Shown: piece by piece, positions 5,886 to 31,324 of the stretch
Numbering within the stretch: the first letter of the stretch is position 1
How the letters are laid out: each line of letters opens with the position of its first letter
Assembly (NCBI RefSeq): GCF_025140835.1
Contig: NZ_CP081153.1
Location: forward strand, 248,001 to 312,000
Reading direction: 5' to 3'
Source of the DNA: Aliiroseovarius sp. M344
GTDB taxonomy: Bacteria; Pseudomonadota; Alphaproteobacteria; Rhodobacterales; Rhodobacteraceae
DNA: 64,000 nt
The notes under the pieces: model-generated
Seen by the model: only the letters and a program-made list of their open reading frames with translations
What the model was told of the DNA's origin: nothing
Databases searched by the model: none
Made by a program: the position numbers and the translations under genes

Positions 5886-5915
5886 ACCGCAAATGTGGAC
5901 CAAAGGACGAACGAA

Positions 5916-6671
5916 ATGAAACTGGACTTCGACACAGATGACGGCATCGGCACCCGCGCCAATCTGGGTGTGATCGTTTTGGAAACCGACGAAACGCTGG
6001 AAAGCGAGTTTCGCCGGATGACCGATCTGGACGGCGTCGCGCTTTATCACTCGCGTATCCCGATGGTACCCGAAGTCCGGCCCGAGACATTGGCGCGGAT
6101 GCTGGATGATATGCCTGCCTCTGCCCGTCTTTTACCACCGTCGCTTGATTTCGACGTGATCGGATATGGCTGCACCTCGGCCTCGACCGTGATCGGGTCG
6201 GAAAAAGTGGCTAAGGCGATCCAATCCGTCTGTCCTTCGGCGAAAGTGACCGACCCGCTGGCCGCCATCATCGCCGCCGGTCACCACCTTGGCGCAAAGC
6301 GGCTTGGGTTCATCACGCCCTATGTCGCGTCCGTATCCGAGCAGATGCGCGACAGGCTGGAGGAGGCCGGGTTCCAGATTGTCGGCTTCGGATCCTTCGA
6401 AGAAGGCCGCGATCCGGTGGTTGCGCGGATCTCTGAAGCCTCGATCATCAAAGCCGCTGACCGCGTGGCAGCGCAAGCCCCCTGCGATGCCATCGTCATC
6501 TCGTGCACCAACCTGCGCTGCCTTTCGATCATCCCCGAGATTGAATTGCGCACCGGCGTACCCATGCTGTCCAGCAATCAGACATTAGCTTGGCATATGC
6601 TGAAGCTGGCGGGCGTCGATAGCACGCGAAAGAATATGGGCCGGTTGTTTGAGGATTGTGGTCTTGGTTGA
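5916..6671 (+). CDS. Asp/Glu racemase superfamily protein (maleate isomerase/arylmalonate decarboxylase-like)
   Basis: 251 residues of the two-cysteine racemase/isomerase superfamily. The two catalytic cysteines are visible: Cys86 in VIGYGCTSAS and Cys197 in IVISCTNLR. The N-terminal phase (LGVIVLETDETLESEF) and HSRIPM segment are those of the maleate isomerase/EutA branch rather than classical glutamate racemase. Third gene of the operon, 30 bp after dpaL, with an AAAGGACG ribosome site; an ATG 21 bp upstream lacks one. EutA in ectoine catabolism is also paired with a PLP lyase (EutB) and an AsnC regulator, so this protein may isomerise a diamino acid for DpaL. Function is inferred. Confidence 0.85.
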   Translation: MKLDFDTDDGIGTRANLGVIVLETDETLESEFRRMTDLDGVALYHSRIPMVPEVRPETLARMLDDMPASARLLPPSLDFDVIGYGCTSASTVIGSEKVAKAIQSVCPSAKVTDPLAAIIAAGHHLGAKRLGFITPYVASVSEQMRDRLEEAGFQIVGFGSFEEGRDPVVARISEASIIKAADRVAAQAPCDAIVISCTNLRCLSIIPEIELRTGVPMLSSNQTLAWHMLKLAGVDSTRKNMGRLFEDCGLG

Positions 6672-7204
6672 TTTAATGGCCGCTTTGATACGATTCTCTC
6701 TCTTGTCTCAACGTTACCAAGAAGCTCTGTCCAAAGTGTTTCGTTGATCCACAATTTTACAGATCAAAGTGGCGATGAGAGACACTTGCGGCGGTCCAGA
6801 GATCAGCAGCGTTCAATTTCGCTTAGAGAAGATGTCACACCCGGTGGAGGGCTTTTGCGTGTGTTTGGCTGGCATGACAACGAAAGGGGCTTTTCACATC
6901 GGATATGGGATGCGTCGAAGATGGTTGCAAACGCGGTTCAAAGTCACAGAAAATCGGTGTTCTAAGCCGAAACTCGGCGTTGATTGACGTGTGGGCAATT
7001 GTCCACACCCAACTCTATTATGCAGAGAACGTGAACAATGGTTAATCTGTCTGTTGTCTAGGTAGAGCTTTCTTACTAACAATTCCTAAAGCAAGTAGTT
7101 TTTGGCGTGCAAAGGTGTGTTTTGTAGATGGCCGTCGCCACTACTACCCAGTTGGACCGAAGAGAAGCCAACAGAAAAACGCGCAGTTTCGAGGTTGTGA
7201 GCAG
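6672..7204. other. Non-coding region before the giant gene, about 530 bp
   Basis: No credible gene on either strand. It must contain the promoter of the giant repeat-protein operon; AT-rich sequence at 7010-7100 is the most likely place but no clear promoter consensus was recognised. Confidence 0.45.
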
Positions 7205-10200
7205 ATGAATGAGTCCCGTGATAGACAGACGAGTAATCGGCTTGGACCCGTCTTCCGTGCAGCCGCAGCGATAAAGACTGCCCTGCTTGCTATTTTCATG
7301 GTTGCGTCGTTTGCGGGTGAGGCTGATGCATCCGACTTCACCCTGACCTCTGTGCCCAACAATTTCACCGCGATCCTTGAAGACGGCAACGGCAACTCGA
7401 TTACGGTCACTGTTTCGCCGCAAAACACGTCTTGCGCCAGCATTAGCGGTGCTGGCCGCATAACGCTGTTTCCCAGTCAGAACCGCGCTGCCTGTAACCA
7501 ATCCTCGATTATGACCTATACGACCAATGGGTTCTTGCTGGATCGGGCTGTCTTCGAAGATATCGACGATATGGACGGCACTGCGCCAAGGGATTCCTTC
7601 GCGGCAAACGTGCCGGGCACATGGACGTCGCCTACCATTGAGATTTATCCGCTGGTCGGACCGCTCCCCCCCTGGCTGTCAGCCGCCAATGATCAGCGCG
7701 GCCGATTGATCGCCTCGGGCGCTGTCGGAAGCTTCTTGGCAAACGCGAGCGGCAATAACCCGACAAACGAGTCTGCGACTTTCACGTTGGATACGCCGAC
7801 CACATCTTTCTCGATCATCATGGATGATGTTGAAGGCTCACGGAATGCGCGTGTTCAGTTTTCACTCGCCTCCATCACCATCGATATTTCACCTGAGCTG
7901 ACGTTGCAAAAGGTCGTCGACAATTCGCTTGGCGGCGATGCGGGGCCGGGTGACTTTACCTTGTCCTATACAAATGGCGGCACGGCATCCGGCAGCGGTG
8001 TCACCGGGGCTGCGTCCGTCACCGACGTCACGGTGCCGGTTGGCACATACACGATTTCAGAGACGAACGACCCGGACTATGCCTTGACGGCTACCTGTTC
8101 GGGCGGGGCGGACAGCAATCCGCTGGATGGTCTGGCTTTGGGGGACGCTGAAGATGTGACCTGCGTTCTGACCAACACCTTTGTTCCCGCCCCCGCGCTG
8201 GAGGTGACCAAGACCGTCCCGGCGACCAATCTGTCAAACCCTCCATCGGTGGGCGACACGATTGCCTATCAGGTGGTGGTTGAGAATACCGGCAACGTGG
8301 ATATGTCCAGCGTGGCCCCGGTTGATACCGGCCCGACCTTTGACGGAAATGCCCATGCGGGTGCTGATCTAAGTTGGGTGACGGGCGACAGCACGACACT
8401 TGCGCCGGGTGATACGGCGACGTTCACCGCGACCTATACGTTGGCGGCGGCAGATGTCGCAGCACTGACCAGCGCGGCGGACCCAACCAACGCAATAGCC
8501 AACAGCGCGACCGCAACCGGCACGCCTGCGAACGGAACGCTGCCCCCCGTGACGCCCAGCACGGCCACGACCGGATACAGCGCCGCCCCGGGTTTGAGTG
8601 TTGCCAAGTCCGTGCCAGCCACCAACCTGTCGACACCGCCCACGGCGGGCGACACGATTAACTATCAGGTGGTGATTGAGAACACCGGCAACGTGGATAT
8701 TGCTGGCGTGGCCCCGGTTGATACCGGCCCGACCTTTGATGGAAGCGCCCATGCGGGTGCCGATCTAAGCTGGACGACCGGTGACAGCACGACGCTGGCC
8801 CCCGGCGCCTCGGCGACGTTCACGGCAACCTATACCTTGGTGGCGGCAGATGTGACGGCGCTGACAGGTGCGGCAGACCCGACCAACGCGATTGCCAACA
8901 GTGCAAGTGCAACCGGCACGCCGACCTCTGGCAGCTTGCCTCCGGTCACGCCGAGCACCGCGACGACGGGTTACACGGCCGCGCCCGGTATGAGCGTGGC
9001 GAAAAGCGTTGGGGCCAACAATCTGTCCACCCCACCCGTTGCGGGCGACACGATTGAATACGAGGTTGTCGTCACCAACACCGGCAACGTGAACATCGAC
9101 GGGGCAACGCCGGTGGACACCGGGCCGACCTTCGATGGTGATGCTCATGCCGGGGCAGATTTGTTCTGGTTTACGGTTGGCAGTACGACACTGGTGCCGG
9201 GCGAGGCCAAGACCTATTTCGCGACCTATACGCTTGTGGTCGCCGACGTCGCTGCGTTGACCAGTGCGGCAGACCCGACCAATGCGATTGCCAACAGCGC
9301 AACCGGCACCGGCACGCCGACCAGTGGCACCTTGCCGCCGGTGACGCCCAGCACGGCGACAACGGGCTATACAGCCGCGCCGGAACTGAGCGTTGCGAAG
9401 TCCGTGCCTGCGACCAACCTGTCGAACCCGCCCGCGATTGGGGATACGGTCGACTATCAGGTCGTTGTGACGAACAGCGGCAATGTGGACATCTCGGGCG
9501 TTGCCCCTGTGGATACCGGGCCGACCTTTGACGGTAACGCCCATGCCGGTGCTGATCTTGTCTGGACGACAAGCAACAGCACGACGCTAGCGCCCGCCGA
9601 CACGGCGACCTTCACCGCGACTTATACGCTGGTGGCGGCGGACGTAACTGCTTTGACCTCGGCCGCCGATACGGCGGCCGCGATAGCTAACAGTGCGACG
9701 GCGACCGGCTCGCCGACCTCTGGCAGCTTGCCTCCCGTGACGCCAAGCAGCGCGACCACGGGGTATACCGCAGCGCCCAGCATCAATGTTGAAAAGACAG
9801 CAGACACATCAGGGTTCAGCACGCCGGTCGCAGCGGGCGATCAGATCATCTTTACTATTCAGGTCGCCAACACCGGCAATACGGCGCTGACCAATGTGTC
9901 GCTGAATGACAGTCTGACCCGGCGCGACGGCGCGACGCTGACCTTGTCGGTTCCCGGCACGCCCAGCTCCGGCGATGGGGGCGTGACTGGCACGCTCGAT
10001 ATCGGCGAGACATGGGAATATCAGGCGACTTACACGCTTGTGCAGGATGACATTGACGCAGGTGGTGTGCAGAACACTGCAACCGGTAGCGCTGATGTGC
10101 CGGGCGGCGGAAACGTTTCGGATGTATCGGACGATGGCGATGATGGGGACGGCAACACCACCGACGACCCAACGCAGGTGAATATTGCCGCAACGCCCAC

Positions 10201-13200
10201 GATCACACTGGCCAAAAGCCTTGCCGTTAGCAGCCCCAACCCGTTTGATACGGTGGGGCAGGTGCTCGCCTATGAGTTCCTTGTTACCAACACCGGCAAC
10301 GTGACGATCACCGCGCCGGTCTCGATTAACGACCCCCTGATCGCCGGGCAGGGTAGCGGACCTGTCACTTGCCCGACCGGACCGATCCTACCAACTTCCA
10401 GCATCACCTGCACCGGCAGCTATCAGGTCACGCAGGACGATCTGAACGCAGGGCAGGTCGTGAACGCGGCCACCGCAAGTGTCACCCAGCCGGTTGTGCC
10501 GGTAACCCCCGGCGGGCCAACATCAGTGACCGCGACCGATGGGCCGTCCGGTGTGACAGTTCCGGCCGACACGACGCCATCCATCAGCTTTGGCAAGGCG
10601 TTGGCATCCTCATCAGCCCTGACCTATGCGGCGGTTGGCGATCAACTGACATATGAATTCACCGTCACCAATGACGGCAACATCACTTTGGATGGGCCGT
10701 TTACCGTGGATGACGACCAGATCGGTAATGGTCTGGCCTGCGGCACCGGCCCGCTTTTGCCCGGCGCAAACGTGACCTGCACCCATGTCTGGACCGCCGC
10801 TCAGGAGGATCTGGACGCGGGATCAGTGACCAATATCGCGTCCGCTGCCACAACGCAGGGTGGCAGCCCGGTTCAGTCGCCAACCGACACGCTGACGGTC
10901 AATGCCTCGACCAGCCCCGCGCTGACGGTTGACAAAACGCTGCAATCCGCCACGCCGGACGTGTTCGATGAAGGCACCGTGCTAAGCTATCAGTTCGAAG
11001 TGACGAACACCGGCAACGTCACCATCGACGGGCCAATCACCATCACCGACAACAAGGCTACGGGCATCACCTGTGCGCCGTTGACGAATGGAGAATTGCT
11101 GCCCACCGAAAACGTCATCTGCACCGGTTCCTATACGATGGTTGCGGGCGATGTGGGCTTTGGGTCCGTCACCAACGTCGCCACCGCGACGGGTGATTAT
11201 AACGGCACCCCCGTCACCTCGCCGTCTGATGATGCGATTTATCCGGTCAGCGCGGCGCCTGCCATCTCGTTGACCAAGGACAGTGACCCGACCGATGTGA
11301 CCTTTGCGGCAGCGGGCGACGTGATTACTTATTCTTATGAAATCACCAACGGTCCGACCGTCGCCCTGTCGGAAGACATCTCGATTGATGATGACAAGAT
11401 CGGCGCGCCTTTCGTGTGTTACGATGCGTCGGTCAGTGGTGTGTTTGGGGTGAATGAAACCGCGACCTGTACCGCGCAATATACCGTCACGCAAGATGAT
11501 GTGGACGCGGGCGAGGTTACCAACCTCGCCGTCGGCTCGACCACCTTCGCGCCGGGCACGCCGGATGAAACGCTGGTGTTGTCGGGTCAGGCCACCAAAA
11601 CCGTTCCCGCAGTGACCGACCCGTCGCTGTCGATTGCCAAGACCATCTCGAACGGCCCGCAACCTGCCGCCGCGGGTGATGTGATCGAATTCACCATCAC
11701 CGCGACCAATGATGGCAACCAGACCATCGCGAATGCTTCGATAAGCGACCCGGATGTGGCCGCGCTGACCTGCACCCATCTTGGATCGACCGTCACCGGG
11801 CCTGTCACCCTGTTGCCGACCGAGACGATCACATGCGTTGGTGACTATACCGTGACGCAAGACGACATTGACGCGCAAAGCAAGATCAACATCGCGAACG
11901 TGTCTGGCACCGATCCCACCGGGGCGACGGTTTCGGTTGACGGGCAGGTCACTGTTGCGCTGGTGGACAATACCGCAGCGCTTGAGTTGGAGAAATCCGT
12001 CACCCCCGCTGTGGCCCCCGGCACGCCGGTCTTCACGCAGGCAGGCGATACCGTCACCTTCTCGGTTCTGGCGCGCAACACGGGCAACGTGTCGCTGGAA
12101 AATGTGGTGATCACCGATGACCTTCCCGTGACGCCGACAAGCTGCACGGTGGGCGACCTTGCCGTCGGTCAGGCGCTGACCGTTTGCACCTTTACCTATA
12201 CCGTGACGCAAGATGACGTGGATGCCGTGAACGGAGCCGCCCCGACCTATGGCGGGTTCACCAACATCGCGCGTGCCACGGCCAATGACGTGACGCCGGA
12301 TGCCACGCCGATCACTGCGCAAGACGACGTGTTCGTGCGCGGCCCGGATCAGGCGCCCAGCTTCTCGCTTGCCAAATCGGCAGATGCGGCGCAGATCGCA
12401 TCCGTTGGGCAGGTGGTGAATTACAGCTATCTGGTGACCAACACGGGCAATATCACGCTGACCGCCTTGCCGATCGTGGCGGACGACAAGATCGCCAGCG
12501 TTTCCTGCCCTGCGCTGCCGGGTGGAGAACTTGCACCGGGCGACGATCTGACCTGCACCGGCAGTTACACGGTGACGCAGGCCGACCTGAACGCAGGCAG
12601 CCTGACCAATATCGCGCGCGTGTCCTCGCCCGAAGTGCCTTTGCCTGTCACACCGGGTCCTGAAACGGACACCGTGACCTTGCCCGCCAACCGCACCGCG
12701 TCGGTGGATTTCGCCAAAACGGCCTCGATCACCTCAGGCGCGGCTGTTGGCGATGTGATCACCTATACCTACAGCGCGACCAACACCGGCAATGTGACAT
12801 TGACCGATGTGGCGGTCAGCGACCAGCACACAAGCGCGGCTGGCACCGTGGCGCTGAGCGTCGGTGGTGATGCGATTGATACGGATGTCGCACCAGCCGG
12901 GGACAGCACAGATGCCGCCGCCGATGGCAGCTGGGATACGCTCGCGCCGGGCGACAGTGTGACCTTCACGGCCAGCTATACCGTCACGCAGGATGACGTG
13001 AACCAACAGGGGTCGCTGGACAACACAGCAAGCTTGACTGCCACACCGCCCGCAGGGCTTCCCCCTGTTAATGAAACCGACGGGCTGTCGATCCCGGTCA
13101 CCGCCCCGACGCCGGGGATTACTGCGCTTAAGACGCTGGCGACCGGTGGGTTGTCTTCGCCCCCCGTGGCGGGCGAGACACTGGATTACACCATCACCGT

Positions 13201-16200
13201 CACCAACTCGGGCAATCAGGATCTGAGCAATATCAGCCTGATCGACGTGTTCCAACGGCTTGACGGATCGACCATCACCCCCGCCGCCCCGCCGCAATAT
13301 GTCAGTGGCGATGTTGGCACGGCCAATGTGTTGGATGTGGGCGAGGCATGGACCTATTCCTTCCAACACGTGCTGACGCAGGCGGATATCGACGCAGGTG
13401 GCGTCAGCAACCAAGTCACCGCGCGCGGCCAGTCGCCCAGCAATGCGCTGGTGTCGGATGCGTCCGACGATGGCAACCCGGCCAATGGTGACGACAACCC
13501 GACCGTTTTGCCAATCGCCGTGACACCGGGGATCGAGGGGCAGAAAACCCTGACTTCGGGCAGCGGCGTGGTGGGCAGTCAGCTGGTCTTCCTGATCGAG
13601 GTGACGAATACGGGCAACGTGACGCTGACCAGTACCGGCATCCAATCTGACACGCTGACGCGAGTGGATGGCACACCGCTGACGCCCTCGGCCCCGTCGT
13701 TCGTTGGATCGACGCAAGGGTCTGGCGCAGGCACTCTGTTGCCCGGCGAGGTTGCCAGCTACGAGGTCCGCTATACGCTGATCCAAGACGATATTGACGG
13801 CGGCGGCGTGCGCAACAGCGCGACCGTCACCGGCACCCCGCCCAGTGGCGTGCCGATCACCGATGTAACCGATGACGGTGACGACGGTGACGGCAACACA
13901 ACCAATGACCCGACCGAGGTTCTGATCACCCCGACCCCGGCGCTGTCGATGGTCAAGACGGTTGGGGCGGGATCGTCCAACCCCTATGACACCGTCGGCC
14001 AGCAGATCAATTATGACTTCGCCGTCACCAATGATGGCAATGTCACCCTGACCGATCCGATCACCATCGCGGATGATTTGATTGACGGGGCAGGGGGCAG
14101 TGTCACCTGCGATCCTTTGCCAGTTGGCGGTTTGGCTCCCAACACGACGCTCAGCTGTGCCGGCAGTTACCTTGTCACACAAAACGACATCGACGTCGGG
14201 TCGGTGGTCAATACCGCAACGGCCTCTAGCGGAGTGACGACCTCAGCGCCTGACAGTGTGACCGTTCCCGCCAGCCAAACCGATGCCTTGACCCTCGTGA
14301 AAGTGGCGGACCCATTGGCGGGCGCGGACTTCTTTGTCGGTGCCACTGCGACGTATACCTATACCCTGACCAACACCGGTAATACGACGCAGGTCGGACC
14401 ATTCAGCGTGGACGATAATCTGATCGACGCAGGCGATATCACCTGCCCGATTCCCGTGGGCAACGAGCTTGCGCCAGGTGATGATCTGGTCTGTGCGGGC
14501 ACGTATCTCATCACCGCGACAGATGTGGATCTGGGTGTCGTGACCAACCTTGCCAGCGGAAGTTCATCCGCGACCACCTCGCCGCTAACATCCGAGACCA
14601 TTCCTGATCAAGGTGTGGCAGCGCTGACGATTGACAAGCAACTGGTAGCAGGCCCCGATTTCTCAGAGATTGGTGATGTGATCGGGTATCAGTTCATCGT
14701 GACCAACAGCGGCACCCGGACTCTGATCGACCCGATCATCGTGCGTGACAGCATTTTGGGTGATATCACCTGCTGGACCCCCGACCCGCCCACCGATCCC
14801 GATTTCCAAGTCGGCGAGGACGCATTCTGTATCGCTGATTATGTCGTGACGCAGGCCGATCTGGACCGCGGTTTCGTTTTCAACGAGGCCTACGGCGAAA
14901 CTACCTATGGCCCTGGTGACACACCGGTGGTCAGCCCGCCGGACAGTGTGACGGTGGCTGGTGACCTGATGCCGGGCCTGACGCTGACCAAAACGGCCGC
15001 GACCTTGCCCGTCACATCAGTTGGTCAGGTGCTGACCTATACTCTGACGGCGGAAAACACTGGCAATCAAACCCTGTCGAACGTGTCGATCACCGACCCG
15101 CTTCTGCCCGGTTTCAACTGCGAAACGTCGTCACTTGTGCGTGGTGACACGCTGCAATGCACCGGCACCTATACCGTCACGCAACCCAATGTGGACAGTG
15201 GCACCCTGTCGAACCGCGCCGATGTTACAGCGCAGAATCCGCAAGGGGCGCCGGTGGCCACTTTTACCACATTGGACATTCCGATGCCCGCAGCAGCCCC
15301 GGCGATGGACTTAAACAAGGTCGCCACGCCATCCCCCTTTGGGGCGGTTGGCAGCACGCTAACTTATCAATTGTCAGTCACCAACACCGGCAATGTGACC
15401 CTGACGAATGTCGCAGTGGATGACCCCATGGGCGGCGGGCAGATTTGCACCATTGCGTCGATCGCGCCGGGCGTGACGGCGGGCGGGTGCAATTTTGATG
15501 TGACCGTCACTCAGGATATGGTTGATGCAGGCGAGATTGTGAACAACGCCTCTGCCGCCGCGACCGACCCTTTCAACACGCCGGTAAGTGACACCGTCGA
15601 ACTGACAACCCCCGGCGCAGCACGCAATCCGGCGCTTGAAGCGACCAAGGTGGTGCTGGGCGGACAATCGGTGGTTGGCGGGCTGGTGGATTACAGCCTG
15701 TCGGTAGCAAACACCGGCAACGTCACGCTGCGCAATGTCAGTGTCGTTGACCAGATGCAATCGCTTCTGGGTGCAGTCACCGCGTTGGATGCGCCCTTTG
15801 CACTGGACCCTGCCAGTGACACCGATAGTGATGGCGAATTGGATGTGGGCGAGGTCTGGACCTATGCCGCCTCGGTCACGCTGCGCCAGATTGATCTGAA
15901 CCATGCGGGCTTGTCCAACCAAGTCACCGTCACCGCCGATGGCCCCGCTGGCAGCGGGCAGGCAACCGATGTGTCCGATGATGGCGATGACAGTGACGGC
16001 AACACGGTCGATGACCCAACCATTTTCAATGTGGTTGTGGACCCGCAACTGACTGTTGTCAAAGCCGTTTTGACCCCCGGAACCCGCGCTGGTGATCAGG
16101 TGGTGTTCGAGATTACGGCGACCAACACCGGCAACCAGGACCTGACCGATCTAAGCGCCAGTGACACGCTGCTGCGCGCCGATGGCACGCCGATTCCGGC

Positions 16201-18760
16201 CATCGCCACGCCGTTGTCGGTGCCCGCGACGCTATCGCCAACCGAGGAAGCGGTTTGGCGCGTGACCCACAACCTGATCCAAGCGGATGTGGATGCTGGC
16301 GGGTTGCGCAACAGCGCGGTGGTCAGCGGCCTGTCGCCCGATAACACACCCATCAGCGATCTGTCTGCCGATGATGATCCGTTGGACGGCAACAACACCG
16401 ACGACCCGACCGAGATGCTGATCCCGCCCGCGCCGGGCATGGAGGTCATCAAGCGCGAGGTCTCAGCCGGGACGCGCGCCGGCGACAGCGTGGACTATGA
16501 GGTCACGGTCGAAAACACCGGCAATGTGACGCTGACGGGTATCGCGCTGGCGGACCAACTGACTGCCATTGATGGGACCGACCCGCGCGCCCTGACGCCG
16601 GTCTTCAACAGCGCGGATGGCACGCCGCCGTCACCCGCTGGCACATTGCTGCCAGGCGAGACCGCGACCTATAATGTGTCCCACGTGCTGACGCAGGATG
16701 ACGTGAACAAGGGCGGGGTGATCAACGTAATCACCGCAAGCGCGGCTACGCCGCTTGGTGGCTCGACCTCTGATGTGTCCGATGATGATGGAGTGGGGAC
16801 GGACGACCCAACCGTCACGCCGATCGCCGCCGCTCCTGCGCTGGATGTGACGAAAACCGCCGGAGCGCCCTCGCGCCTGTTCCACACGGTTGAGCAATCG
16901 ACCTTCACGATCACTGTGACCAATACCGGCAACATCACCCAGACGGGCATTCAGGTAGTGGACGATCTGGTCACTTTCCTTGCGCCGGCAACACTGTTGT
17001 CTGCCGACTATCCGGTCACGACCACAGCAGCGGACTTCACCAGCGGGGCCGCCAGCGCAACCTTTGACGGGGTCGGTGACACGGCGCTTTTGTCTGGCGA
17101 CCCGACACTCGATCCCGGCGAAACCGGTACGATCACGATCACTATGGTCTATTCCACCGCGAATGGCTTCCCGACCGCACCGAACACGGCCAGTGCGACC
17201 TCGACCCAGTTGACCACGCCCAGCATCGGGCAGGGACCGCTGACCCCGAATGACAATGATGGCGACGGGATCCCGGACTATCAGGATTTCGACCCGACCG
17301 GCTATTTCTATTGCGAACAGGACGGGTCTGTTCTGACAGGCGGTCAAGTTAGCATCTCGGGTGGCGGATTCACGCAAACCGGTGTGGGGACCAATGGGCC
17401 GATTGTCGTCACCGATGACGGGTCGGACGGGTTCTATCAGTTCTTTGTCACTTCGCCGGGGACATACACATTGGCCGTGACCTATCCGCCGATTGGCACG
17501 CCGTCGACGACGCGCGCGCCGGGTGGCACGCTGGATACGACCACGCTGTTGCCGGCAAATCCGGCGCTGATCGGGTCGGGGACAACGGCAGACGGATTGA
17601 CGCTGACCGACTATTCGGCCGGGGGCAATCCGTTCTACTTCACATTTGATATCGAAGCGGGCGATCCCGAGGTTCAGAACAACAACATCCCGTTGATGGA
17701 TTGCCGCCCCAGCGTGCCGATTGTCGCCACCAAATCGGCAGATCGTGATACCGCGGTGTTTGGCGAGACTGTGAATTTCACTCTGACCTTTGAGAACCTG
17801 TCCGGCGCGACGTTCCCTGACACGCGTTTGGTAGACGAGCTGCCGCCGGGCTTGCTGTATACCCCCGGCACCGCGAGGGTGAACGGAACAGCAGTGGAAC
17901 CGAACGTATCTGGCCGCCAGTTGCGCTGGATCGAAACGCTCAGCGCGTCTGAGAAGGTGACGATCACCTTTGCCGCCCGCATCGCGTCGCGCGGAAACTT
18001 CGGAACTCTGACCAACCGCACATGGGCGCAGGATGCAAACGGAAACGTGCTGTCGAATGTCGCAATGGCCGATATCGAAATCCGGCCCGAGCATGTGTTC
18101 GATTGCTCGGATGTGATCGGCAAGGTGTTCGACGACAAAAACCGCAATGGTTATCAGGATGGACCAGGCACCTTGCCCGAGGCGATCCTTGACGACAACA
18201 TCTATGACGGAAGCAAAGGCAAGCTTGCCCCGACAATTGAACGCCCCAACACGACCGAGCCGGGCTTGCCTGATGTGCGCCTTGTGTCGCCCAATGGCAC
18301 GATCATAACTACAGATGAATATGGCCGCTTCTCGGTCCCCTGTGCTGCGCTTCCCCGCACGATCGGGTCGAATTTCATGCTGAAGCTCGACAAGCGCAGT
18401 TTGCCGACAGGTTATCGCGTCACCACAGAAAACCCGCGGGTGATCCGCTTGACACCGGGCAAGATCGCCAAGCTGAACTTCGGAGCCGCGATTGGAAATG
18501 TGGTCGATATCGACCTGACCCGTGCAGCCTTCGCCAACGGAAAGACGCAGCCAAGCGCAGGGCTTGCGCGGGCTCTGACGGCGCTAATCAACCAGATCAG
18601 TGGCACGGAGACTGCGATCGAGCTGACATATGTGCTAGGCGCGGGTGAAGACCCGGCCACAGGACGCGCACGTCTGAGGGCCGTCAAGCAAGTGCTTGAA
18701 AGCCAGTGGCACGGATACTATCGCCTTGATGTGGGCACCAATGTGGTGCGCAAACAATGA
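7205..18760 (+). CDS. Giant secreted repeat protein (DUF11/DUF7507-like repeats, adhesin-like)
   Basis: A 3851-residue exported protein. Residues ~1-40 form a signal peptide with a long n-region (hydrophobic core ALLAIFMVASFAG, then EADA). Residues ~42-230 are a unique beta-rich domain; ~231-327 resemble a SpaA-like prealbumin domain; 329-856 are four tandem repeats of exactly 132 residues; ~857-3340 are many diverged repeats of the DUF11/DUF7507 type, recognised by the recurring K-T...G..V.Y...VTNTGN pattern and VTQDD(V/I)DAG. A DNDGDGIPDYQD calcium-loop-like segment lies near 3353, another DUF11-like domain near 3500-3626 and an SdrD B-like domain (VFDDKNRNGYQDG) near 3632-3760. The composition is Thr/Asp/Gly-rich and acidic. 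The next gene, encoding a barrel, overlaps or closely follows. Likely a surface fibre or adhesin. The start with a signal peptide is preferred to one 90 bp upstream. Confidence 0.85.
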   Translation: MNESRDRQTSNRLGPVFRAAAAIKTALLAIFMVASFAGEADASDFTLTSVPNNFTAILEDGNGNSITVTVSPQNTSCASISGAGRITLFPSQNRAACNQSSIMTYTTNGFLLDRAVFEDIDDMDGTAPRDSFAANVPGTWTSPTIEIYPLVGPLPPWLSAANDQRGRLIASGAVGSFLANASGNNPTNESATFTLDTPTTSFSIIMDDVEGSRNARVQFSLASITIDISPELTLQKVVDNSLGGDAGPGDFTLSYTNGGTASGSGVTGAASVTDVTVPVGTYTISETNDPDYALTATCSGGADSNPLDGLALGDAEDVTCVLTNTFVPAPALEVTKTVPATNLSNPPSVGDTIAYQVVVENTGNVDMSSVAPVDTGPTFDGNAHAGADLSWVTGDSTTLAPGDTATFTATYTLAAADVAALTSAADPTNAIANSATATGTPANGTLPPVTPSTATTGYSAAPGLSVAKSVPATNLSTPPTAGDTINYQVVIENTGNVDIAGVAPVDTGPTFDGSAHAGADLSWTTGDSTTLAPGASATFTATYTLVAADVTALTGAADPTNAIANSASATGTPTSGSLPPVTPSTATTGYTAAPGMSVAKSVGANNLSTPPVAGDTIEYEVVVTNTGNVNIDGATPVDTGPTFDGDAHAGADLFWFTVGSTTLVPGEAKTYFATYTLVVADVAALTSAADPTNAIANSATGTGTPTSGTLPPVTPSTATTGYTAAPELSVAKSVPATNLSNPPAIGDTVDYQVVVTNSGNVDISGVAPVDTGPTFDGNAHAGADLVWTTSNSTTLAPADTATFTATYTLVAADVTALTSAADTAAAIANSATATGSPTSGSLPPVTPSSATTGYTAAPSINVEKTADTSGFSTPVAAGDQIIFTIQVANTGNTALTNVSLNDSLTRRDGATLTLSVPGTPSSGDGGVTGTLDIGETWEYQATYTLVQDDIDAGGVQNTATGSADVPGGGNVSDVSDDGDDGDGNTTDDPTQVNIAATPTITLAKSLAVSSPNPFDTVGQVLAYEFLVTNTGNVTITAPVSINDPLIAGQGSGPVTCPTGPILPTSSITCTGSYQVTQDDLNAGQVVNAATASVTQPVVPVTPGGPTSVTATDGPSGVTVPADTTPSISFGKALASSSALTYAAVGDQLTYEFTVTNDGNITLDGPFTVDDDQIGNGLACGTGPLLPGANVTCTHVWTAAQEDLDAGSVTNIASAATTQGGSPVQSPTDTLTVNASTSPALTVDKTLQSATPDVFDEGTVLSYQFEVTNTGNVTIDGPITITDNKATGITCAPLTNGELLPTENVICTGSYTMVAGDVGFGSVTNVATATGDYNGTPVTSPSDDAIYPVSAAPAISLTKDSDPTDVTFAAAGDVITYSYEITNGPTVALSEDISIDDDKIGAPFVCYDASVSGVFGVNETATCTAQYTVTQDDVDAGEVTNLAVGSTTFAPGTPDETLVLSGQATKTVPAVTDPSLSIAKTISNGPQPAAAGDVIEFTITATNDGNQTIANASISDPDVAALTCTHLGSTVTGPVTLLPTETITCVGDYTVTQDDIDAQSKINIANVSGTDPTGATVSVDGQVTVALVDNTAALELEKSVTPAVAPGTPVFTQAGDTVTFSVLARNTGNVSLENVVITDDLPVTPTSCTVGDLAVGQALTVCTFTYTVTQDDVDAVNGAAPTYGGFTNIARATANDVTPDATPITAQDDVFVRGPDQAPSFSLAKSADAAQIASVGQVVNYSYLVTNTGNITLTALPIVADDKIASVSCPALPGGELAPGDDLTCTGSYTVTQADLNAGSLTNIARVSSPEVPLPVTPGPETDTVTLPANRTASVDFAKTASITSGAAVGDVITYTYSATNTGNVTLTDVAVSDQHTSAAGTVALSVGGDAIDTDVAPAGDSTDAAADGSWDTLAPGDSVTFTASYTVTQDDVNQQGSLDNTASLTATPPAGLPPVNETDGLSIPVTAPTPGITALKTLATGGLSSPPVAGETLDYTITVTNSGNQDLSNISLIDVFQRLDGSTITPAAPPQYVSGDVGTANVLDVGEAWTYSFQHVLTQADIDAGGVSNQVTARGQSPSNALVSDASDDGNPANGDDNPTVLPIAVTPGIEGQKTLTSGSGVVGSQLVFLIEVTNTGNVTLTSTGIQSDTLTRVDGTPLTPSAPSFVGSTQGSGAGTLLPGEVASYEVRYTLIQDDIDGGGVRNSATVTGTPPSGVPITDVTDDGDDGDGNTTNDPTEVLITPTPALSMVKTVGAGSSNPYDTVGQQINYDFAVTNDGNVTLTDPITIADDLIDGAGGSVTCDPLPVGGLAPNTTLSCAGSYLVTQNDIDVGSVVNTATASSGVTTSAPDSVTVPASQTDALTLVKVADPLAGADFFVGATATYTYTLTNTGNTTQVGPFSVDDNLIDAGDITCPIPVGNELAPGDDLVCAGTYLITATDVDLGVVTNLASGSSSATTSPLTSETIPDQGVAALTIDKQLVAGPDFSEIGDVIGYQFIVTNSGTRTLIDPIIVRDSILGDITCWTPDPPTDPDFQVGEDAFCIADYVVTQADLDRGFVFNEAYGETTYGPGDTPVVSPPDSVTVAGDLMPGLTLTKTAATLPVTSVGQVLTYTLTAENTGNQTLSNVSITDPLLPGFNCETSSLVRGDTLQCTGTYTVTQPNVDSGTLSNRADVTAQNPQGAPVATFTTLDIPMPAAAPAMDLNKVATPSPFGAVGSTLTYQLSVTNTGNVTLTNVAVDDPMGGGQICTIASIAPGVTAGGCNFDVTVTQDMVDAGEIVNNASAAATDPFNTPVSDTVELTTPGAARNPALEATKVVLGGQSVVGGLVDYSLSVANTGNVTLRNVSVVDQMQSLLGAVTALDAPFALDPASDTDSDGELDVGEVWTYAASVTLRQIDLNHAGLSNQVTVTADGPAGSGQATDVSDDGDDSDGNTVDDPTIFNVVVDPQLTVVKAVLTPGTRAGDQVVFEITATNTGNQDLTDLSASDTLLRADGTPIPAIATPLSVPATLSPTEEAVWRVTHNLIQADVDAGGLRNSAVVSGLSPDNTPISDLSADDDPLDGNNTDDPTEMLIPPAPGMEVIKREVSAGTRAGDSVDYEVTVENTGNVTLTGIALADQLTAIDGTDPRALTPVFNSADGTPPSPAGTLLPGETATYNVSHVLTQDDVNKGGVINVITASAATPLGGSTSDVSDDDGVGTDDPTVTPIAAAPALDVTKTAGAPSRLFHTVEQSTFTITVTNTGNITQTGIQVVDDLVTFLAPATLLSADYPVTTTAADFTSGAASATFDGVGDTALLSGDPTLDPGETGTITITMVYSTANGFPTAPNTASATSTQLTTPSIGQGPLTPNDNDGDGIPDYQDFDPTGYFYCEQDGSVLTGGQVSISGGGFTQTGVGTNGPIVVTDDGSDGFYQFFVTSPGTYTLAVTYPPIGTPSTTRAPGGTLDTTTLLPANPALIGSGTTADGLTLTDYSAGGNPFYFTFDIEAGDPEVQNNNIPLMDCRPSVPIVATKSADRDTAVFGETVNFTLTFENLSGATFPDTRLVDELPPGLLYTPGTARVNGTAVEPNVSGRQLRWIETLSASEKVTITFAARIASRGNFGTLTNRTWAQDANGNVLSNVAMADIEIRPEHVFDCSDVIGKVFDDKNRNGYQDGPGTLPEAILDDNIYDGSKGKLAPTIERPNTTEPGLPDVRLVSPNGTIITTDEYGRFSVPCAALPRTIGSNFMLKLDKRSLPTGYRVTTENPRVIRLTPGKIAKLNFGAAIGNVVDIDLTRAAFANGKTQPSAGLARALTALINQISGTETAIELTYVLGAGEDPATGRARLRAVKQVLESQWHGYYRLDVGTNVVRKQ
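8189..9772 (+). repeat. Four tandem 396-bp (132-codon) repeats inside the giant gene
   Basis: Unit starts are at 8189, 8585, 8981 and 9377, each exactly 396 bp apart, ending at 9772. Each unit encodes a domain starting AP-x-L/M-x-V and ending TPSTATTGY-x-A (TPSSATTGY in the fourth). The units are much more alike than the diverged repeats that follow, which suggests recent duplication. Confidence 0.9.
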
Positions 18761-18777
18761 GCGCGGTGAGGTATAAG

Positions 18778-21700
18778 ATGATGTATCGATTGACCAAATT
18801 CACCTTGGCCTGCGGCGCTTCAGTGCTGGCGCTGATCGGGACTGCGCGCGCGCAGGACGGGTACAGCATCACCATCAATGACGAACAATTTGCAGGTGAT
18901 CCGGCGGTGCAGACTGCCGTTCGCCAGATTGACCAGTCGTTGGCGGCGGCAGACTTGCAGGTTAAGTTCGACGGGCTTGGCGTGGTGCCGCGCTTGACGC
19001 TTTTGGTTCTGAACGACACGCTGCCCAAACCCGGTGAAACCGTCGCTGTGCGCAGCCAGCTGAACTACCCGGCTTTTGTGACCTGGGCCGAGCTGCGGGT
19101 GATTGACCCGCGCGCTTTGGGAGGAGCGCGCACGGTTTTGGTAGCGCCGATCGCCCCCAATGGGGATGCGAGCTTCACCATGCCCGAGGGACGAGATCTT
19201 TTAGTCGTGCATCGCGTTTACGACCAGTTCGGACGCTACGATGAAACCAACCCGATCAACATCGGGCCGCTGTCCGACAGCCGCGCGGAAACCACCGAGG
19301 CCGAGGCGGGCGTTGACAATTCCGCGCGCCGCCGCATCCCCGTACGTGGCGGTGCCGTGACCGTCAGCGGCAGCAGCGTTGCCCCCGGTGCGACGGTGCA
19401 AACCCTTGGCGAACAAGTCAAAGCCGACCCCTCTGGTAGTTTCGTCATTCAACGCATTCTGCCCCCTGGCGAACACCCGATCGGCGTGCGCGTCGCGGGT
19501 GGCGGTACGGGCTATATCGAACGCGAGATATCAATCCCCAACACCGAATGGTTTGGCACGGGGTTGATCGACCTGACCTTCGGGCGCAAGCTTCAGGGCG
19601 GGGTGGGTGCCGCAGGTGGGCCGTTTGAGCGCGACTATGGTTATGGGCGCATCGCGGGCTATGTCACCGGTAAAACTGCGACCGGGTGGGACCTGACCGC
19701 ACGGATCGACACTGGCGAAGACGAGTTCAAGAACCTGTTCAGCGGGCTGGACAAGAAAGACCCGCAATCGCGGTTGCGCCGGATGCTGATCGAAGACGGC
19801 TATCCGACCTATGGCGACGACAGCACGCTGATCGACGGCGCGCCGTCAGACGGCAAGATCTATCTAAAACTGGCCAAGGCTGGCAGCCACATCCTATGGG
19901 GCAATTACAAAAGCCAGATTGAAAACAGCACCTATCTGCGCAATGAGCGCACGCTATATGGGGCGCAGGCGGTGTATCGGTCGCAGGCGCAAACCTCCGA
20001 TGGCGAAAGCCGACTGGCCGCCGAAGTCTATGCCGCCAGCCCCGACCGTCTGCCCGGACGCGAGTATTTCGACGGCACTGGCGGGTCGATCTATTTCCTG
20101 ACGCGCGATGACCTGACGCTTGGGTCTGAAACTGTCTCGGTCGAACTGCGCGACAAACGCACGGGGCGGGTGATTTCTACAACGCAACTTGTGCATGGCG
20201 TGGACTACGAGATTGACTATAGCCAAGGCGTCGTCACCCTTTCTGCGCCGTTAAGCGGATTTGGAGCGTCGAGAAATCTGGTCACCGAACCCGGCGGGGA
20301 TCAGGTTCTGCGCCTTGCCGTGCAATATGAATACACCCCCAGCGCCACCGAAATCGACGGTGTTTCCTATGGTGGCCGGGTGGAGAGCTGGGTCAGCGAC
20401 AGCGTGCGCGTTGGGCTGACGGGCATGGTTGAACAGACCGATATCGCCGACCAAACCGCGATCGGTGGCGATGTGCGTCTACAATTCGGCGACGACAGCT
20501 TTGTCGAGGTCGAATACGCCGAAACCAAAGGGCCGGGTTTTGGCTCGTCGATCAGCTCGGACGGTGGGTTGATCGTGACGACCTCGACCACCGCGGGCAC
20601 TGTCGGCGGTACCGGCGAGGCATGGCGGTTGCGCGGACAGGCCGAGTTTGCCGATCTGGGTGTAGATACGCCTGGCCGCGCAACCGGCTATTACGAAAAG
20701 CGCAGCGCGGGTTTTTCGACGCTAGATTACCAGATCGTCAATGACGAAGAACTTTGGGGCGTCACGCTAGAGATTGAACCGACCGAAAGGCTGGCCTTCC
20801 GGCTTTATGCCGATGACTACAAGGACAGCACCGGCAAGACTTTGACCGAGGTCGGGGCGGAGTTGACCTTCAAGGCGACCGAGCGGATCACGCTGGATTT
20901 CGGGGTCGAGCATCTGGATCAGGTGACGCCCGGCGGCGACGCGGATGAAACCGGAACACGCACAGATGCAGCGGTTCGTCTGACCTATAAGGTCAGTGAT
21001 GACCTAAGCTGGCATGTGTTCGGCCAGCACACGCTTAGCCGCGCGGGCGGGCTGCGCCGCAATGACCGGTATGGTGCCGGGGCCGCGCTGCGGTTTGCGC
21101 AGAACTGGACCGTTGAAGGCGAAGTGTCAGACGGCACCCTTGGCATCGGTGGAAAGCTGTTGCTGACCTATCAAAGCGATGGCTATGACAGCGCCTATTT
21201 TGGCTACGAGCTTGAACCGGGACGAGATCTTTCAGGTATTACCCTGAACGGAGCGGACAGCGGACGGTTCGTGCTTGGCGGCAAGCGGCAGGTAAGCAAT
21301 TCAGTCAAGCTCTACGGTGAAAATACATATGATATCTTTGGCCGCCACCGGTCGCTGGTCAGCGCCTATGGCGTCGAATACGCCTATGACGAAGCGCTTA
21401 GCTTTTCGGCTGGGTTCGAGACAGGCCGCATAAATGACAGGACCGAAGGCGACTATGACCGCAATGCCTATTCCGTGGGTGTGCTGTATGACGACGGCAA
21501 CGCGCTGAGCTTTGCGGCCAAGGCCGAATACCGTCGCGACCGGGGCGTTAGCGGGGGAACGGTCCGCGATGCGGACGCGTGGCGCGTTGCGGCGTCGGGA
21601 CAATACAAGTTCAACGAAAGCCACCGGCTGGTTTTCTCGGCCGACCACACCAATGTGGACAGCGTTAGCCCCACGCTGGACAATGGTGTCTATACCGATG

Positions 21701-22200
21701 CCGTTTTGGGCTATGCTTACAGGCCTGTTGATCATGACCGGCTGAACATGTTGTTCCAGTACCGCTATTTCCACGACTCGCTGGGGCAGGTGATTGACCA
21801 GACCGGCGAACGTGGACAGCGTCAGGAAAGCCATATCCTGTCGTTTGACGTAGAATATGACCTGAACCGGTTCTGGACAATTGGCGGCAAGTTGGGCCTG
21901 CGCAAATCGGTATCGTCACCCAGTTCAGGCGTCGCCTTCCAACAGAACGATGCAGGTCTGGCGGTCGTAAACGCCCGCTATCACGTTGTGCACAAATGGG
22001 ATTTGTTACTGGAAGCCCGCCATCTGGAAGCCAAACAGGCGGGCCTGTCGGAAACAGCGTTCTTGGGGGCGGTCTATCGTCAGATCGGGGACAACGCTAA
22101 AATCGGTGTCGGGTATAATTTCGGCAGTTTTAGTGACGATTTGACCGACCTGACCTTTGACGATGAAGGCGTGTTCATCAATGTGATTGCCAAGTTCTGA
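18778..22200 (+). CDS. Large outer-membrane beta-barrel protein, partner of the giant repeat protein
   Basis: About 1140 residues. A signal peptide is clear (MMYRLTKFTLACGASVLALIG, ending ARA before Gln). Residues ~25-260 are periplasmic beta domains, including a carboxypeptidase-regulatory-like segment (GSFVIQRILPPGEHPIGV). From about residue 265 to the end there are alternating amphipathic strands (for example RIAGYVTGKTATGWDLTARID, YEYDEALSFSAGFETGRI-type) and the protein ends in Phe (VFINVIAKF), a C-terminal signature of BAM-inserted barrels. The first possible ATG overlaps the previous stop (ATGA at 18757), but GGTGAGGT sits 5 bp before 18778, favouring that start. No TonB box or plug domain was recognised, so it is not a standard TonB receptor. 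Probably anchors or exports the giant protein; this rests on operon context. Confidence 0.8.
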   Translation: MMYRLTKFTLACGASVLALIGTARAQDGYSITINDEQFAGDPAVQTAVRQIDQSLAAADLQVKFDGLGVVPRLTLLVLNDTLPKPGETVAVRSQLNYPAFVTWAELRVIDPRALGGARTVLVAPIAPNGDASFTMPEGRDLLVVHRVYDQFGRYDETNPINIGPLSDSRAETTEAEAGVDNSARRRIPVRGGAVTVSGSSVAPGATVQTLGEQVKADPSGSFVIQRILPPGEHPIGVRVAGGGTGYIEREISIPNTEWFGTGLIDLTFGRKLQGGVGAAGGPFERDYGYGRIAGYVTGKTATGWDLTARIDTGEDEFKNLFSGLDKKDPQSRLRRMLIEDGYPTYGDDSTLIDGAPSDGKIYLKLAKAGSHILWGNYKSQIENSTYLRNERTLYGAQAVYRSQAQTSDGESRLAAEVYAASPDRLPGREYFDGTGGSIYFLTRDDLTLGSETVSVELRDKRTGRVISTTQLVHGVDYEIDYSQGVVTLSAPLSGFGASRNLVTEPGGDQVLRLAVQYEYTPSATEIDGVSYGGRVESWVSDSVRVGLTGMVEQTDIADQTAIGGDVRLQFGDDSFVEVEYAETKGPGFGSSISSDGGLIVTTSTTAGTVGGTGEAWRLRGQAEFADLGVDTPGRATGYYEKRSAGFSTLDYQIVNDEELWGVTLEIEPTERLAFRLYADDYKDSTGKTLTEVGAELTFKATERITLDFGVEHLDQVTPGGDADETGTRTDAAVRLTYKVSDDLSWHVFGQHTLSRAGGLRRNDRYGAGAALRFAQNWTVEGEVSDGTLGIGGKLLLTYQSDGYDSAYFGYELEPGRDLSGITLNGADSGRFVLGGKRQVSNSVKLYGENTYDIFGRHRSLVSAYGVEYAYDEALSFSAGFETGRINDRTEGDYDRNAYSVGVLYDDGNALSFAAKAEYRRDRGVSGGTVRDADAWRVAASGQYKFNESHRLVFSADHTNVDSVSPTLDNGVYTDAVLGYAYRPVDHDRLNMLFQYRYFHDSLGQVIDQTGERGQRQESHILSFDVEYDLNRFWTIGGKLGLRKSVSSPSSGVAFQQNDAGLAVVNARYHVVHKWDLLLEARHLEAKQAGLSETAFLGAVYRQIGDNAKIGVGYNFGSFSDDLTDLTFDDEGVFINVIAKF

Positions 22201-22742
22201 CAGTTTTCAGTTGTTCTGGCTTCCAATGATTGGATTGGTATTTTTGATCCTCAGCATGTTTTTCGCGGCCATCATGCTCTAGGTCTGCATCGATTGCGAT
22301 GAGCGCGTTCACGAATACTTTTTTCTTACCACATAGTGATTGGCGGCTTTTTTGGCTGCAACCGCAGGCTTGAGACACAGTGTTCAAATTCTGAATTAGG
22401 CCGAGTGACGCCATTCGGATTAGATGAAACGGTCGATGCTGAAAAGTGTAGAAAGTCGTCGTTTAGCCTTTACTGGACCTTGTTTTTCGTGCCGCAAGCG
22501 CTCGCGGCGGTAGAACGCTGCACATGCAAGGGTCGGAGTGCTGTCAGTGGCGGGGAAAACCGACTATTCGATCAAAACGCAGCGAGATTTGCTGCACGAA
22601 TAGACCGGCCGCGGATGAAGTAGTCGTTTGCTGCGGCTTCGCCAATGACAGCTTTCGGAAAAACACCAAATCCCCAAGCAACGGTGACGCTATGGAAAAC
22701 ACGTGCTACGGTTTGGGACGACATTCTGAAAGGCTCTGCGCG
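22201..22742. other. Non-coding region, about 540 bp
   Basis: Follows the barrel gene. It contains one 18-codon hydrophobic frame at 22226-22282 (MIGLVFLILSMFFAAIML) with no ribosome site, and otherwise degenerate sequence. No terminator hairpin was recognised. Confidence 0.45.
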
Positions 22743-23678
22743 ATGGCAATTAATCAAGGCGCTTTTCCTGCAGCGAGTGCCGATTTGTTTTTGGTATATG
22801 TGGGTATGGAAACAGATTTGATTTTCAACCGCGGCGTGGAATTGCCCGGCTTTGCTTCATACCCACTGTTGGAAAGCGCCGGCGGTCAGGAGTTTCTGCG
22901 AGGCTACCTGACGGACATGGTGACTTTGGCAAAGGACACTGGCACAGGTGTAATTCTTGAAAGCCCGACCTGGGTTGCAAATCGAGACCGTGCGGCTGCC
23001 CTTGGCTATACCCCCAAAGCTTTGAAAGAGCTCAATCAGCGAGCCATCGCCTTGATGCAAGACGTTCGGACGGCCAACAGCCATATGCCGACCATCATCA
23101 GCGCCAACCTCGGACCACGTGACGATGCCTACAAGCCTTCGGAACAAATGACTGCCGAAGAGTCAGAGCGTTACCATTCCGAACAGATCTCGTTTTTGGC
23201 GGAGACGGATGTTGACGTTATCAGCGGTTACACGATCGCCTATCCGGCTGAGGCGGTCGGAATCGTACGTGCGGCGCAGCGTTTCGAGCTGCGTGTTGTG
23301 ATTGCGTTTACAGTCGAAACCAACGGCAGGCTGCCGACGGGGATTAGCCTTGAGGATGCTATATCTCAGGTCGATGCCGCAACCGACGGTTACCCCGCCT
23401 ATTTCATGATAAATTGCGCGCACCCTGAGCATTTCAACTCCGTTCTTGAGGATGCGCCTTGGATGCAACGTATCAGAGGAATTGTCGCTAACGCGTCACG
23501 CTGCAGCCATGCAGAGCTTGATGAAGCCGAGGAGCTTGATGACGGCAACCCAACCGAGTTGGGAACGCAGTTGGCTGAAATCAGGAGGCGGTTCCCACAC
23601 ATTCAAGCCTTGGGAGGGTGTTGCGGAACGGATATGCGACACATGGCTCAAATTGCGAAAGCCGCGCGCGCAACCTAA
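22743..23678 (+). CDS. Homocysteine S-methyltransferase family protein
   Basis: 311 residues, cytosolic TIM-barrel methyltransferase that would pass a methyl group from a methyl donor (for example a betaine or S-methylmethionine) to homocysteine. The three zinc-ligand cysteines of the family are present: Cys225 in INCAHP and Cys293-Cys294 in GGCCGT. The N-terminal segment DLFLVYVGMETDLIFNRG aligns with the family start, but the usual DGG is replaced by YVG. The chosen ATG gives the usual N-terminal length; in-frame starts at 22692 and 22524 would add unsupported residues. It converges on the MttB/flavoprotein pair, which suggests a shared methylated-amine pathway. Confidence 0.82.
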   Translation: MAINQGAFPAASADLFLVYVGMETDLIFNRGVELPGFASYPLLESAGGQEFLRGYLTDMVTLAKDTGTGVILESPTWVANRDRAAALGYTPKALKELNQRAIALMQDVRTANSHMPTIISANLGPRDDAYKPSEQMTAEESERYHSEQISFLAETDVDVISGYTIAYPAEAVGIVRAAQRFELRVVIAFTVETNGRLPTGISLEDAISQVDAATDGYPAYFMINCAHPEHFNSVLEDAPWMQRIRGIVANASRCSHAELDEAEELDDGNPTELGTQLAEIRRRFPHIQALGGCCGTDMRHMAQIAKAARAT

Positions 23679-25502: not shown

Positions 25503-25517
25503 AGTACTGGCCTCTCT

Positions 25518-27971: not shown

Positions 27972-28906
27972 AAGACCCTCCGTTCAAATCCATGCCATTT
28001 TCGACTGAGTTGATCTTGGCTACCCCAACACGATCACCTCCCTCAGCTTTCTTATGCGGATATCCTGTCTGTTGCATGGATATGTTTCTCAGACGCTAGT
28101 CTGCCCTCGATCTATTACAATAGCGTCATGAAATTCTCAGCCAGCTCTCTACCCTGCAATCTTTTTGAGCCGGATAGTCAGGTAGGTCACACAACCGGAA
28201 TATGGGGCCATTGCTCGCCGCGAAAAAAAGCGGCCATTGGCGCAACTGCAGCGAAAACTCACTTGGCCCGTGTCTCGTTCGCCTGATTTGCCCCCAGCGA
28301 AATGTCAGTTTGAAACTCGCCAGAATTGACACTGCCGAAGGCTCGGTTTGAGGACAATTGCTGCATCGTTGAAATTTATCAGCCGCAAGTGCGAAGCGAT
28401 GCTTTTTCAGCGAGGGTCGAATAGCCAAGGTCGATTTTGCCCGCAGTGCAGTCAAACGAAGAGTCCGGGATGTGTGGCGTCTTCCGGTCGTAAGCGACCG
28501 CGCAAGGCTGACGCCATAACCCGACATCGTGTCCTATTTGACGGTATGTCGCAGAATGGAACTTATCAGAAAGTGGAGCAAGGGATTTAGCTGATCCAGC
28601 TCCAAGCTGAATTTTCTCAATGAAAAGTTAAAATAGTGGCCCAAAAGGCAACTTACGTTGGTGTCCGACAAAAAGTGTGGGGCGACACATAGTTTTGCCA
28701 TTGGCACGCGGCCAAGTCATTGATTTTGAATCAACTGTATTTTCCTCGGTGCACTAGTATTACCTTTTGCGACTCAAAGGTTTTCCATCGCATCAGAGCA
28801 GCGTGATAGCTGCCATTGGCCCCGGGTGCAGAGAACGATCGGAAAGAGCCCAATATGACCGATGCAGCAAGAAACACGAATGGCTGCTTCAGCAAAAGCT
28901 TTTCAG
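27972..28906. other. Non-coding region of about 930 bp with degenerate repeat-like sequence
   Basis: Open frames here lack coding character. CATTGGCGCA (28235-28244) followed three bases later by GCAGCGAA (28248-28255) is repeated with the same spacing at 33331-33351, 5 kb away. GGCCATTG occurs twice (28207 and 28232). The part nearest 27972 should hold the promoter of the flavoprotein/MttB operon. Confidence 0.5.
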
Positions 28907-30115: not shown

Positions 30116-30139
30116 AGCAGCCTTATAATACAGGTAAAC

Positions 30140-31290: not shown

Positions 31291-31324
31291 TCTAACCTCC
31301 CGCATCTCATCGTAGGTGCAACTC

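Follow-up and report, generated by a model that had tools for sequence, protein, structure and literature searches.

In Gram-negative bacteria, the export and holding of giant Ig-type fibrillar adhesins is largely an open question. Among the systems to which a new locus may be compared, type Va autotransporters have a barrel of 12 strands, two-partner secretion (TPS; type Vb, FhaB/FhaC) has a large passenger and a barrel encoded adjacently, and fimbrial ushers are 24-strand barrels with a plug between strands 6 and 7. SprA of type IX secretion has 36 strands and an inner width of ~7 nm according to the available text of PMC7463736. According to the available text of a survey of fibrillar adhesins from Gram-negatives and others (PMC9210967), 846 of the 1,666 proteins in its positive set have a known anchor or a sortase motif, and the existence of further, unknown anchors is suggested. 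A CLIPPER (DUF11/DUF7507) fibrillar adhesin, B9T28_05395 of Acinetobacter silvestris (PDB 9IFR), is described in the available text of PMC12617251. Here we report on two adjacent genes in a window of 64 kb, the whole stretch of DNA analysed (G000:C1:248001-312000), from the 3.39-Mb genome of Aliiroseovarius sp. M344. They encode a giant repeat protein and, directly 3' of it, an outer-membrane barrel protein.

The two proteins almost certainly function as a unit. The stalk of the giant is of a known kind, and the logic of the pair resembles type V secretion. With a probability of about 0.55, we propose that the repeats are exported by the barrel and that the giant is held through a periplasmic C-terminal module (C-module), in the manner of an autotransporter divided between two proteins. 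No publication on the pair was found among the literature matches listed, as judged by title and opening of the abstract, most subscription journals lying outside the coverage. Text matches to 'DUF11' were discarded, since nearly all were to DUF1194 and the single match in an Asaia paper was to DUF1134.

Conserved pairing of the giant and barrel genes

Both open reading frames (ORFs) are as described in the initial annotation, a 3851-residue repeat protein followed by a barrel protein. On the forward strand, the giant runs from the ATG at 7205 to the stop at 18758-18760 (3851 aa; a longer, mechanical ORF begins at the GTG at 7115), and the barrel ORF occupies 18757-22200 (1147 aa). The suspected ATGA overlap of the giant stop and the barrel start is present at 18757-18760. 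By eye, however, the best sequence resembling a ribosome site is GGTGAGG at 18765-18771, 6-9 nt 5' of the in-frame ATGs 18778 and 18781, and for this reason translation of the barrel protein may start at Met8 or Met9.

Genome scans, plasmid records and a single scan of named genomes supplied the homologues. The barrel was found in 39 genomes of a family sample of 248, each of a different genus, and by profile search in 59 genomes of a phylum sample of 398. The C-module, corresponding to the last 340 residues of the giant, was recovered in 29 genomes of the family sample (E <= 1e-10) and in 29 of the phylum sample (E <= 1e-5), and in both cases all 29 were among the genomes with a barrel. The hypergeometric probability of this overlap is ~1e-29 for the family and ~6e-28 for the phylum, with genomes treated as independent of kinship. 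Of the first-look candidates in each genome, two were scored in the barrel searches and up to 12 or 7 in those with the C-module, which makes the counts lower bounds and leaves absences less than firm.

Besides the own genome, 38 family genomes had a match, and regions from 36 of them were fetched; with these and the own genome counted, 40 of the 59 phylum genomes were inspected. Of the 19 others, 17 belong to one family, and most have frames of fused size. The barrel proteins longer than 900 aa amounted to 78, comprising 22 fused to at least part of a C-module and 56 unfused. A C-module-bearing protein was encoded directly upstream of 52 of the 56 unfused barrels, on the same strand and with a gap of -205 to +37 nt, a count that did not change when the C-module profile lacked DUF11. 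In the remaining four, the giant lay downstream (locus L113), the pieces were in order in broken genes (L079), or the barrel stood at a contig edge (L065, L135). The reversed order of L113/L152 corresponds to a barrel followed by a 3505-aa giant, with the C-module confirmed in L152. Left out of the 56 were the fragments L068 (contig end), L069 (273 aa, with ~3 kb upstream devoid of a giant) and L136 (a 91-aa frame with a stop). Two further candidates, L134 and L133 (E 4e-4 and 6e-4 in the phylum scan), were dropped, being neither barrel nor C-module by profile. The 56 include close relatives (L006-L009; L111/L112) and so cannot count as independent.

Upstream partners with a complete frame and a C-module measured 740-4215 aa, leaving aside L055, a 727-aa frame without a signal peptide that looks like a fragment. 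The distances between barrels and between C-modules were correlated (Mantel r 0.85 over 27 loci, reached by 0 of 9999 permutations), a figure in which shared ancestry is still included, and gene neighbourhoods of the pair differed between relatives in the named examples. Because the pairing is conserved, chance is excluded as the source of the gene pair. The expected co-occurrence of the two families was thus borne out, their homologues not being found mostly alone. The pair may be accessory, since no barrel match was found in the genome of a congener rated 100% complete (G475) and relatives reside on plasmids.

Domains of the giant and fold of the barrel protein

The giant begins with a Sec-type signal peptide of ~43 residues (7205..7333, by eye). 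The N-terminal region that follows, which would form the distal end (residues 44-228, 7334..7888), was assigned no Pfam family and may be adhesive. Then come a SpaA_2 prealbumin-like domain (residues 229-321, 7889..8167; PF19403, E 1.5e-11) and a stalk of 24 DUF7507/DUF11-type domains (residues 332-3281, 8198..17047). A profile made from the protein's own repeats delineated these 24 domains at E < 1e-5, with a weak first match from residue 233, while Pfam gave 24 stretches of DUF7507 and 16 of DUF11, which overlap in part, and NCBIfam gave TIGR01451 20 times plus an isopeptide-forming fimbrial domain. When the 24 repeats are aligned, the isopeptide-type Lys is seen in 20 of them, the Asp in all 24 and the Asn in 18, with gaps in the Lys and Asn columns of the others; the bonds themselves are putative. 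By way of its DUF11 domain, an alignment of the C-module retrieved PDB 9IFR (E 6.7e-7). Given its DUF7507/DUF11 repeats, its isopeptide-type residues and this match to a CLIPPER chain, the giant classifies by sequence as a CLIPPER-type stalk protein. It shares with B9T28_05395 the tandem DUF11-type stalk, the isopeptide-type residues and an OmpA-like end, the latter by topology only in the giant. The two differ in that a dedicated barrel gene is present here, whereas the main text of PMC12617251 mentions neither beta-barrel nor outer membrane and describes no partner barrel.

The barrel protein has the parts that had been read from its sequence, namely a signal peptide (18757..18852, by eye; helix 2-28 in the model), periplasmic-type beta domains (residues 33-261, 18853..19539, from model and alignment), barrel-like strands and a C-terminal Phe. 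An AlphaFold2 model predicts one large barrel of ~42 strands by DSSP behind the periplasmic-type domains (residues 262-1147, 19540..22197), a domain that a second structural comparison supports too. Its best conserved part (residues 319-515, 19711..20301) comprises an inserted segment bearing a YPTYGDDST motif and a small beta domain, and is the portion matched by distant fused relatives. The last strand (22168..22197) ends in a Phe that occupies a nearly invariant alignment column; a C-terminal strand ending in Phe is a BAM-type signal. Should the strand count be right, the protein would rank with the largest barrels made of a single chain and could accommodate folded domains.

By sequence, the barrel falls into no family that was tested. 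Among 28 barrel homologues searched with Pfam at E <= 1, none matched PF07715 or PF00593 (which we take to be the TonB plug and the TonB receptor barrel), POTRA or ShlB/FhaC barrel domains, the type Va autotransporter domain PF03797, the fimbrial usher PF00577, or DUF560 (PF04575, Slam/type XI transporter). No intimin-type family was seen in the 28 either, and the barrel is C-terminal here, not N-terminal as in intimins. The absence of plug and POTRA and the dissimilarity to FhaB/FhaC, intimins and autotransporters, all asserted in the initial annotation, were thus confirmed, and by these profiles the barrel did not correspond to a standard TonB receptor or usher. In NCBIfam, whose library presumably holds a SprA model, the window barrel matched nothing at E <= 1, the SprA family included. 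A search of PDB sequences found nothing at E <= 10 with the barrel itself, and two chance rows with its alignment.

Foldseek returned SprA, LptD, Deinococcus SlpA, TonB receptors and ushers, with query TM-scores of at most 0.21 among the 50 matches listed; we read these as general barrel similarity and dropped any specific kinship. SprA/Sov is likewise a very large single-chain barrel and was matched at E 1.6e-7, but the query TM-score is 0.14 and no NCBIfam model fits the window barrel. In TPS, passenger and barrel are adjacent as here, yet POTRA and ShlB are missing from the homologues and the Pfam matches of the giant include no TPS-type domain. The fused relatives described below are organised like type Va autotransporters, surface-type domains first and barrel last in a single chain. 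The window barrel, however, has ~42 predicted strands instead of 12, and none of the 28 homologues matches PF03797.

Ushers gave the best rows of the second structural comparison, and like FimD the barrel is large and has a small beta domain inserted. One could imagine that the family is a platform that assembles or secretes several DUF11-type subunits, the giants being merged subunits. We hold this to be improbable: the usher domain is missing from all 28 homologues, porins score within 1-2 Z units of the ushers, and profile comparison with E. coli K-12 FimD gave 0.6%, which is not significant. No usher match was found in the own genome by a search that was positive in a control E. coli, and both scanned neighbours of the window pair are metabolic.

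The database labels of barrel relatives read "TonB-dependent receptor", "OmpA family protein" or "hypothetical", and the first of these, carried by 7 of 24 plasmid matches, would favour an uptake receptor, in which a TonB-dependent or porin-like channel takes in a substrate captured by the giant. Such a role seems very improbable, as neither plug nor TonB receptor domain occurs in the homologues and the size range of the partners would fit a stalk better than a binding lid. The label is probably misleading, and the present analysis would correct it.

Fused relatives and a candidate export route

The 22 fused proteins match the broad C-module profile, DUF11 included, in the same chain as the barrel. 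With DUF11 removed from the profile, 16 of them still match, chiefly in the SdrD_B portion. When eight fused proteins of the family were compared by profile, the C-module scored 99.8% (E 2.7e-29) and the barrel 100% (E 2e-51, 792 columns). The order in the fused chains is DUF11-type part, C-module, barrel. In L120, a frame of 2079 aa open at the contig start, nearly the whole C-module including its terminal domain is followed by the N-terminal domain of the barrel protein with no signal peptide in between. L120 gives the best clue that, in the split form, the C-terminus of the giant may be in contact with the N-domain of the barrel.

Of the 78 barrel proteins, 11 contain one to three true OmpA domains, the majority of which show GHTD and LSxxRAxxV motifs. 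They lie between C-module and barrel in fused forms and N-terminally in split forms; L115 and L119 have three in succession N-terminal to the barrel. These motifs have a role in peptidoglycan binding. The OmpA domains preceding the barrel probably place its N-terminal part in the periplasm, and the C-terminus of the giant would lie there too, because the C-module adjoins this part in the fusions.

The C-module was modelled from 28 homologues (pLDDT 87.2, pTM 0.51) as a DUF11 domain (residues 3508-3608, 17726..18028; Pfam and model), an SdrD_B-like domain (~residues 3636-3756, 18110..18472; from fold matches and Pfam matches of homologues) and a terminal beta-alpha-beta-alpha-beta domain (residues 3765-3849, 18497..18751; model residues 254-338, DSSP, pLDDT ~90). 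SdrD_B is matched in Pfam by 14 of the 28 C-module homologues, yet not by the window protein itself. Fold searches covered model residues 1-253, the terminal domain lying outside, and their matches (integrin, pilin, SdrD) reflect the Ig-like part. The topology of the terminal domain is that of the C-terminal, periplasmic domain of OmpA.

Taken together, the pairing and the fusions suggest a dedicated route to export or anchor giant surface fibres. In the proposed scheme, the giant would be a fibrillar and probably rope-like protein of the surface, made of an N-terminal region, an isopeptide-type CLIPPER stalk and the C-module. Giant and barrel protein, as their signal peptides indicate, would cross the inner membrane by Sec, and the C-terminal signal of the barrel points to insertion by BAM. 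The repeats would then pass outward through the barrel while the C-module remains at the periplasmic face, docked on the N-terminal domains of the barrel, an arrangement that would leave the giant attached and its N-terminus farthest from the cell. The fused relatives, one chain in the same order, would be the autotransporter-like form and the window pair its split version. That the barrel anchors or exports the giant had been proposed from the start; the part that holds is that both act as a unit, supported by pairing and fusions, and we infer the export, its direction and the docking. Since the barrel is present in every sampled genome with a C-module, and is sometimes fused to it, the export question is directly testable.

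The repeats should be outside the cell, because the stalk, with about 25-30 Ig-like domains, would by estimate exceed 100 nm when extended. This is far longer than the periplasm and argues against a periplasmic giant that tethers the barrel to peptidoglycan, which we consider scarcely credible. The OmpA-type domains before the barrel would agree with such a tether, but CLIPPER stalks are known from surface proteins, as the available text of PMC12617251 indicates.

A more serious alternative, though still an unlikely one, is that the giant takes a different route across the outer membrane, with the barrel merely holding the C-module, at the surface or in the periplasm. The pairing and fusion evidence applies equally to such an anchor. 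The A. silvestris adhesin is described with an OmpA-like anchoring domain, and the main text of PMC12617251 contains no words starting with secret-, export- or translocat-. On the other side, a barrel this large would exceed the need of an anchor, and searches of the own genome gave no usher and a single secretin match, in a frame of 499 aa. A TPS/ShlB search of the own genome is uninformative on absence, as no control genome was matched either. Among the usher, secretin and TPS routes that these searches covered, the barrel would be the sole dedicated candidate passage found.

Several points weigh against export through the barrel. Export and surface location themselves are reached by inference. 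The confidence of the barrel model is moderate (pLDDT 76.9, pTM 0.68), which makes closure, pore size and plug state of the barrel tentative. The shared C-module part stops short of the terminal domain in 21 of the 22 fused proteins, and two genomes contain, besides a complete pair, a C-module with no barrel next to it (L150, L151). None of 28 C-modules matched PF00691 (OmpA family) at E <= 1. In a single profile comparison with the true OmpA domains of relatives, the terminal domain gave only 10% probability (E 0.003), in register, with 0.1% for a control part. Considering these weak matches and the range of the fold searches, the last ~90 residues of the giant are, in the model, OmpA-like by topology only.

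There is a serious chance that the pair is a class of its own. More tentatively, and as a possibility that we would not favour, it may represent an unrecognised class of outer-membrane secretion, in which a ~40-strand barrel, SprA-sized or larger, passes pre-folded, isopeptide-locked domains and an OmpA-like domain acts as periplasmic stopper. This class would be widespread in Pseudomonadota, with distant barrel relatives in cyanobacteria, and would exist as one chain, as a split pair with a giant, or as an operon resembling those of pili, in which several subunits are small.

Related loci and flanking genes

Barrel genes beside secreted DUF11-type proteins, in a pilus-operon-like arrangement, were seen at L070, L137, L139-L142 and L147 (all fused) and at L156 (a cyanobacterium). 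The DUF11-type neighbours are small (~160-210 aa) at most of these loci, or medium-sized (330-510 aa), and nine small ones could be aligned and share a common pattern. Regarding the two C-modules apart from a barrel, the one in L150 (7983-8720) is a lone secreted protein of 245 aa with little beyond the giant's C-module minus DUF11, and the one in L151 belongs to a row of four adjoining secreted DUF11-type proteins (6241-12665; 1009, 337, 342 and 359 aa), with no barrel match within that 13-kb stretch.

In the named genomes the close barrel relatives are four, all Aliiroseovarius. Barrel matches were found in 24 of 72,556 plasmid records, among them Sulfitobacter, Roseivivax, Roseovarius, Loktanella, Sinorhizobium, Phyllobacterium, Devosia, Eleftheria and Vibrio, with weak ones in two cyanobacteria. 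Five plasmid regions were opened, and a DUF11 or SdrD_B giant followed by a barrel was present in four (Sulfitobacter guttiformis, Sinorhizobium meliloti, Eleftheria terrae, Roseovarius). The fifth, cyanobacterial, encodes a 1543-aa protein with a distant barrel match, itself devoid of a DUF11 match, and DUF11-type neighbours of 187, 509 and 2018 aa. On S. guttiformis pSG53 (L153, record 24096-42683) the giant gene measures 18,588 bp (~6195 aa), about one third of the 53-kb plasmid.

In the window, the scanned flanks are metabolic by Pfam, with an Amdase/Asp-Glu racemase type gene at 5895-6671 and a homocysteine S-methyltransferase gene at 22524-23678. Promoter and terminator scans gave no excess over shuffled sequence (5 matches vs 5.5, and 9 vs 15, respectively). 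Further away, a transposase resembling IS21 IstA by eye is encoded at 35681-37210. In E. terrae (L155, 1-2871) FecR- and CHASE2-domain genes stand directly 5' of the pair, and a FecR-like frame (by eye) was noticed 3' of the fused gene of L137 (10376-12622). Three of the closest plasmid matches (H3-H5) come from isolates whose recorded source starts with 'Surface of a polyethylene', which would suit a role in surface attachment.

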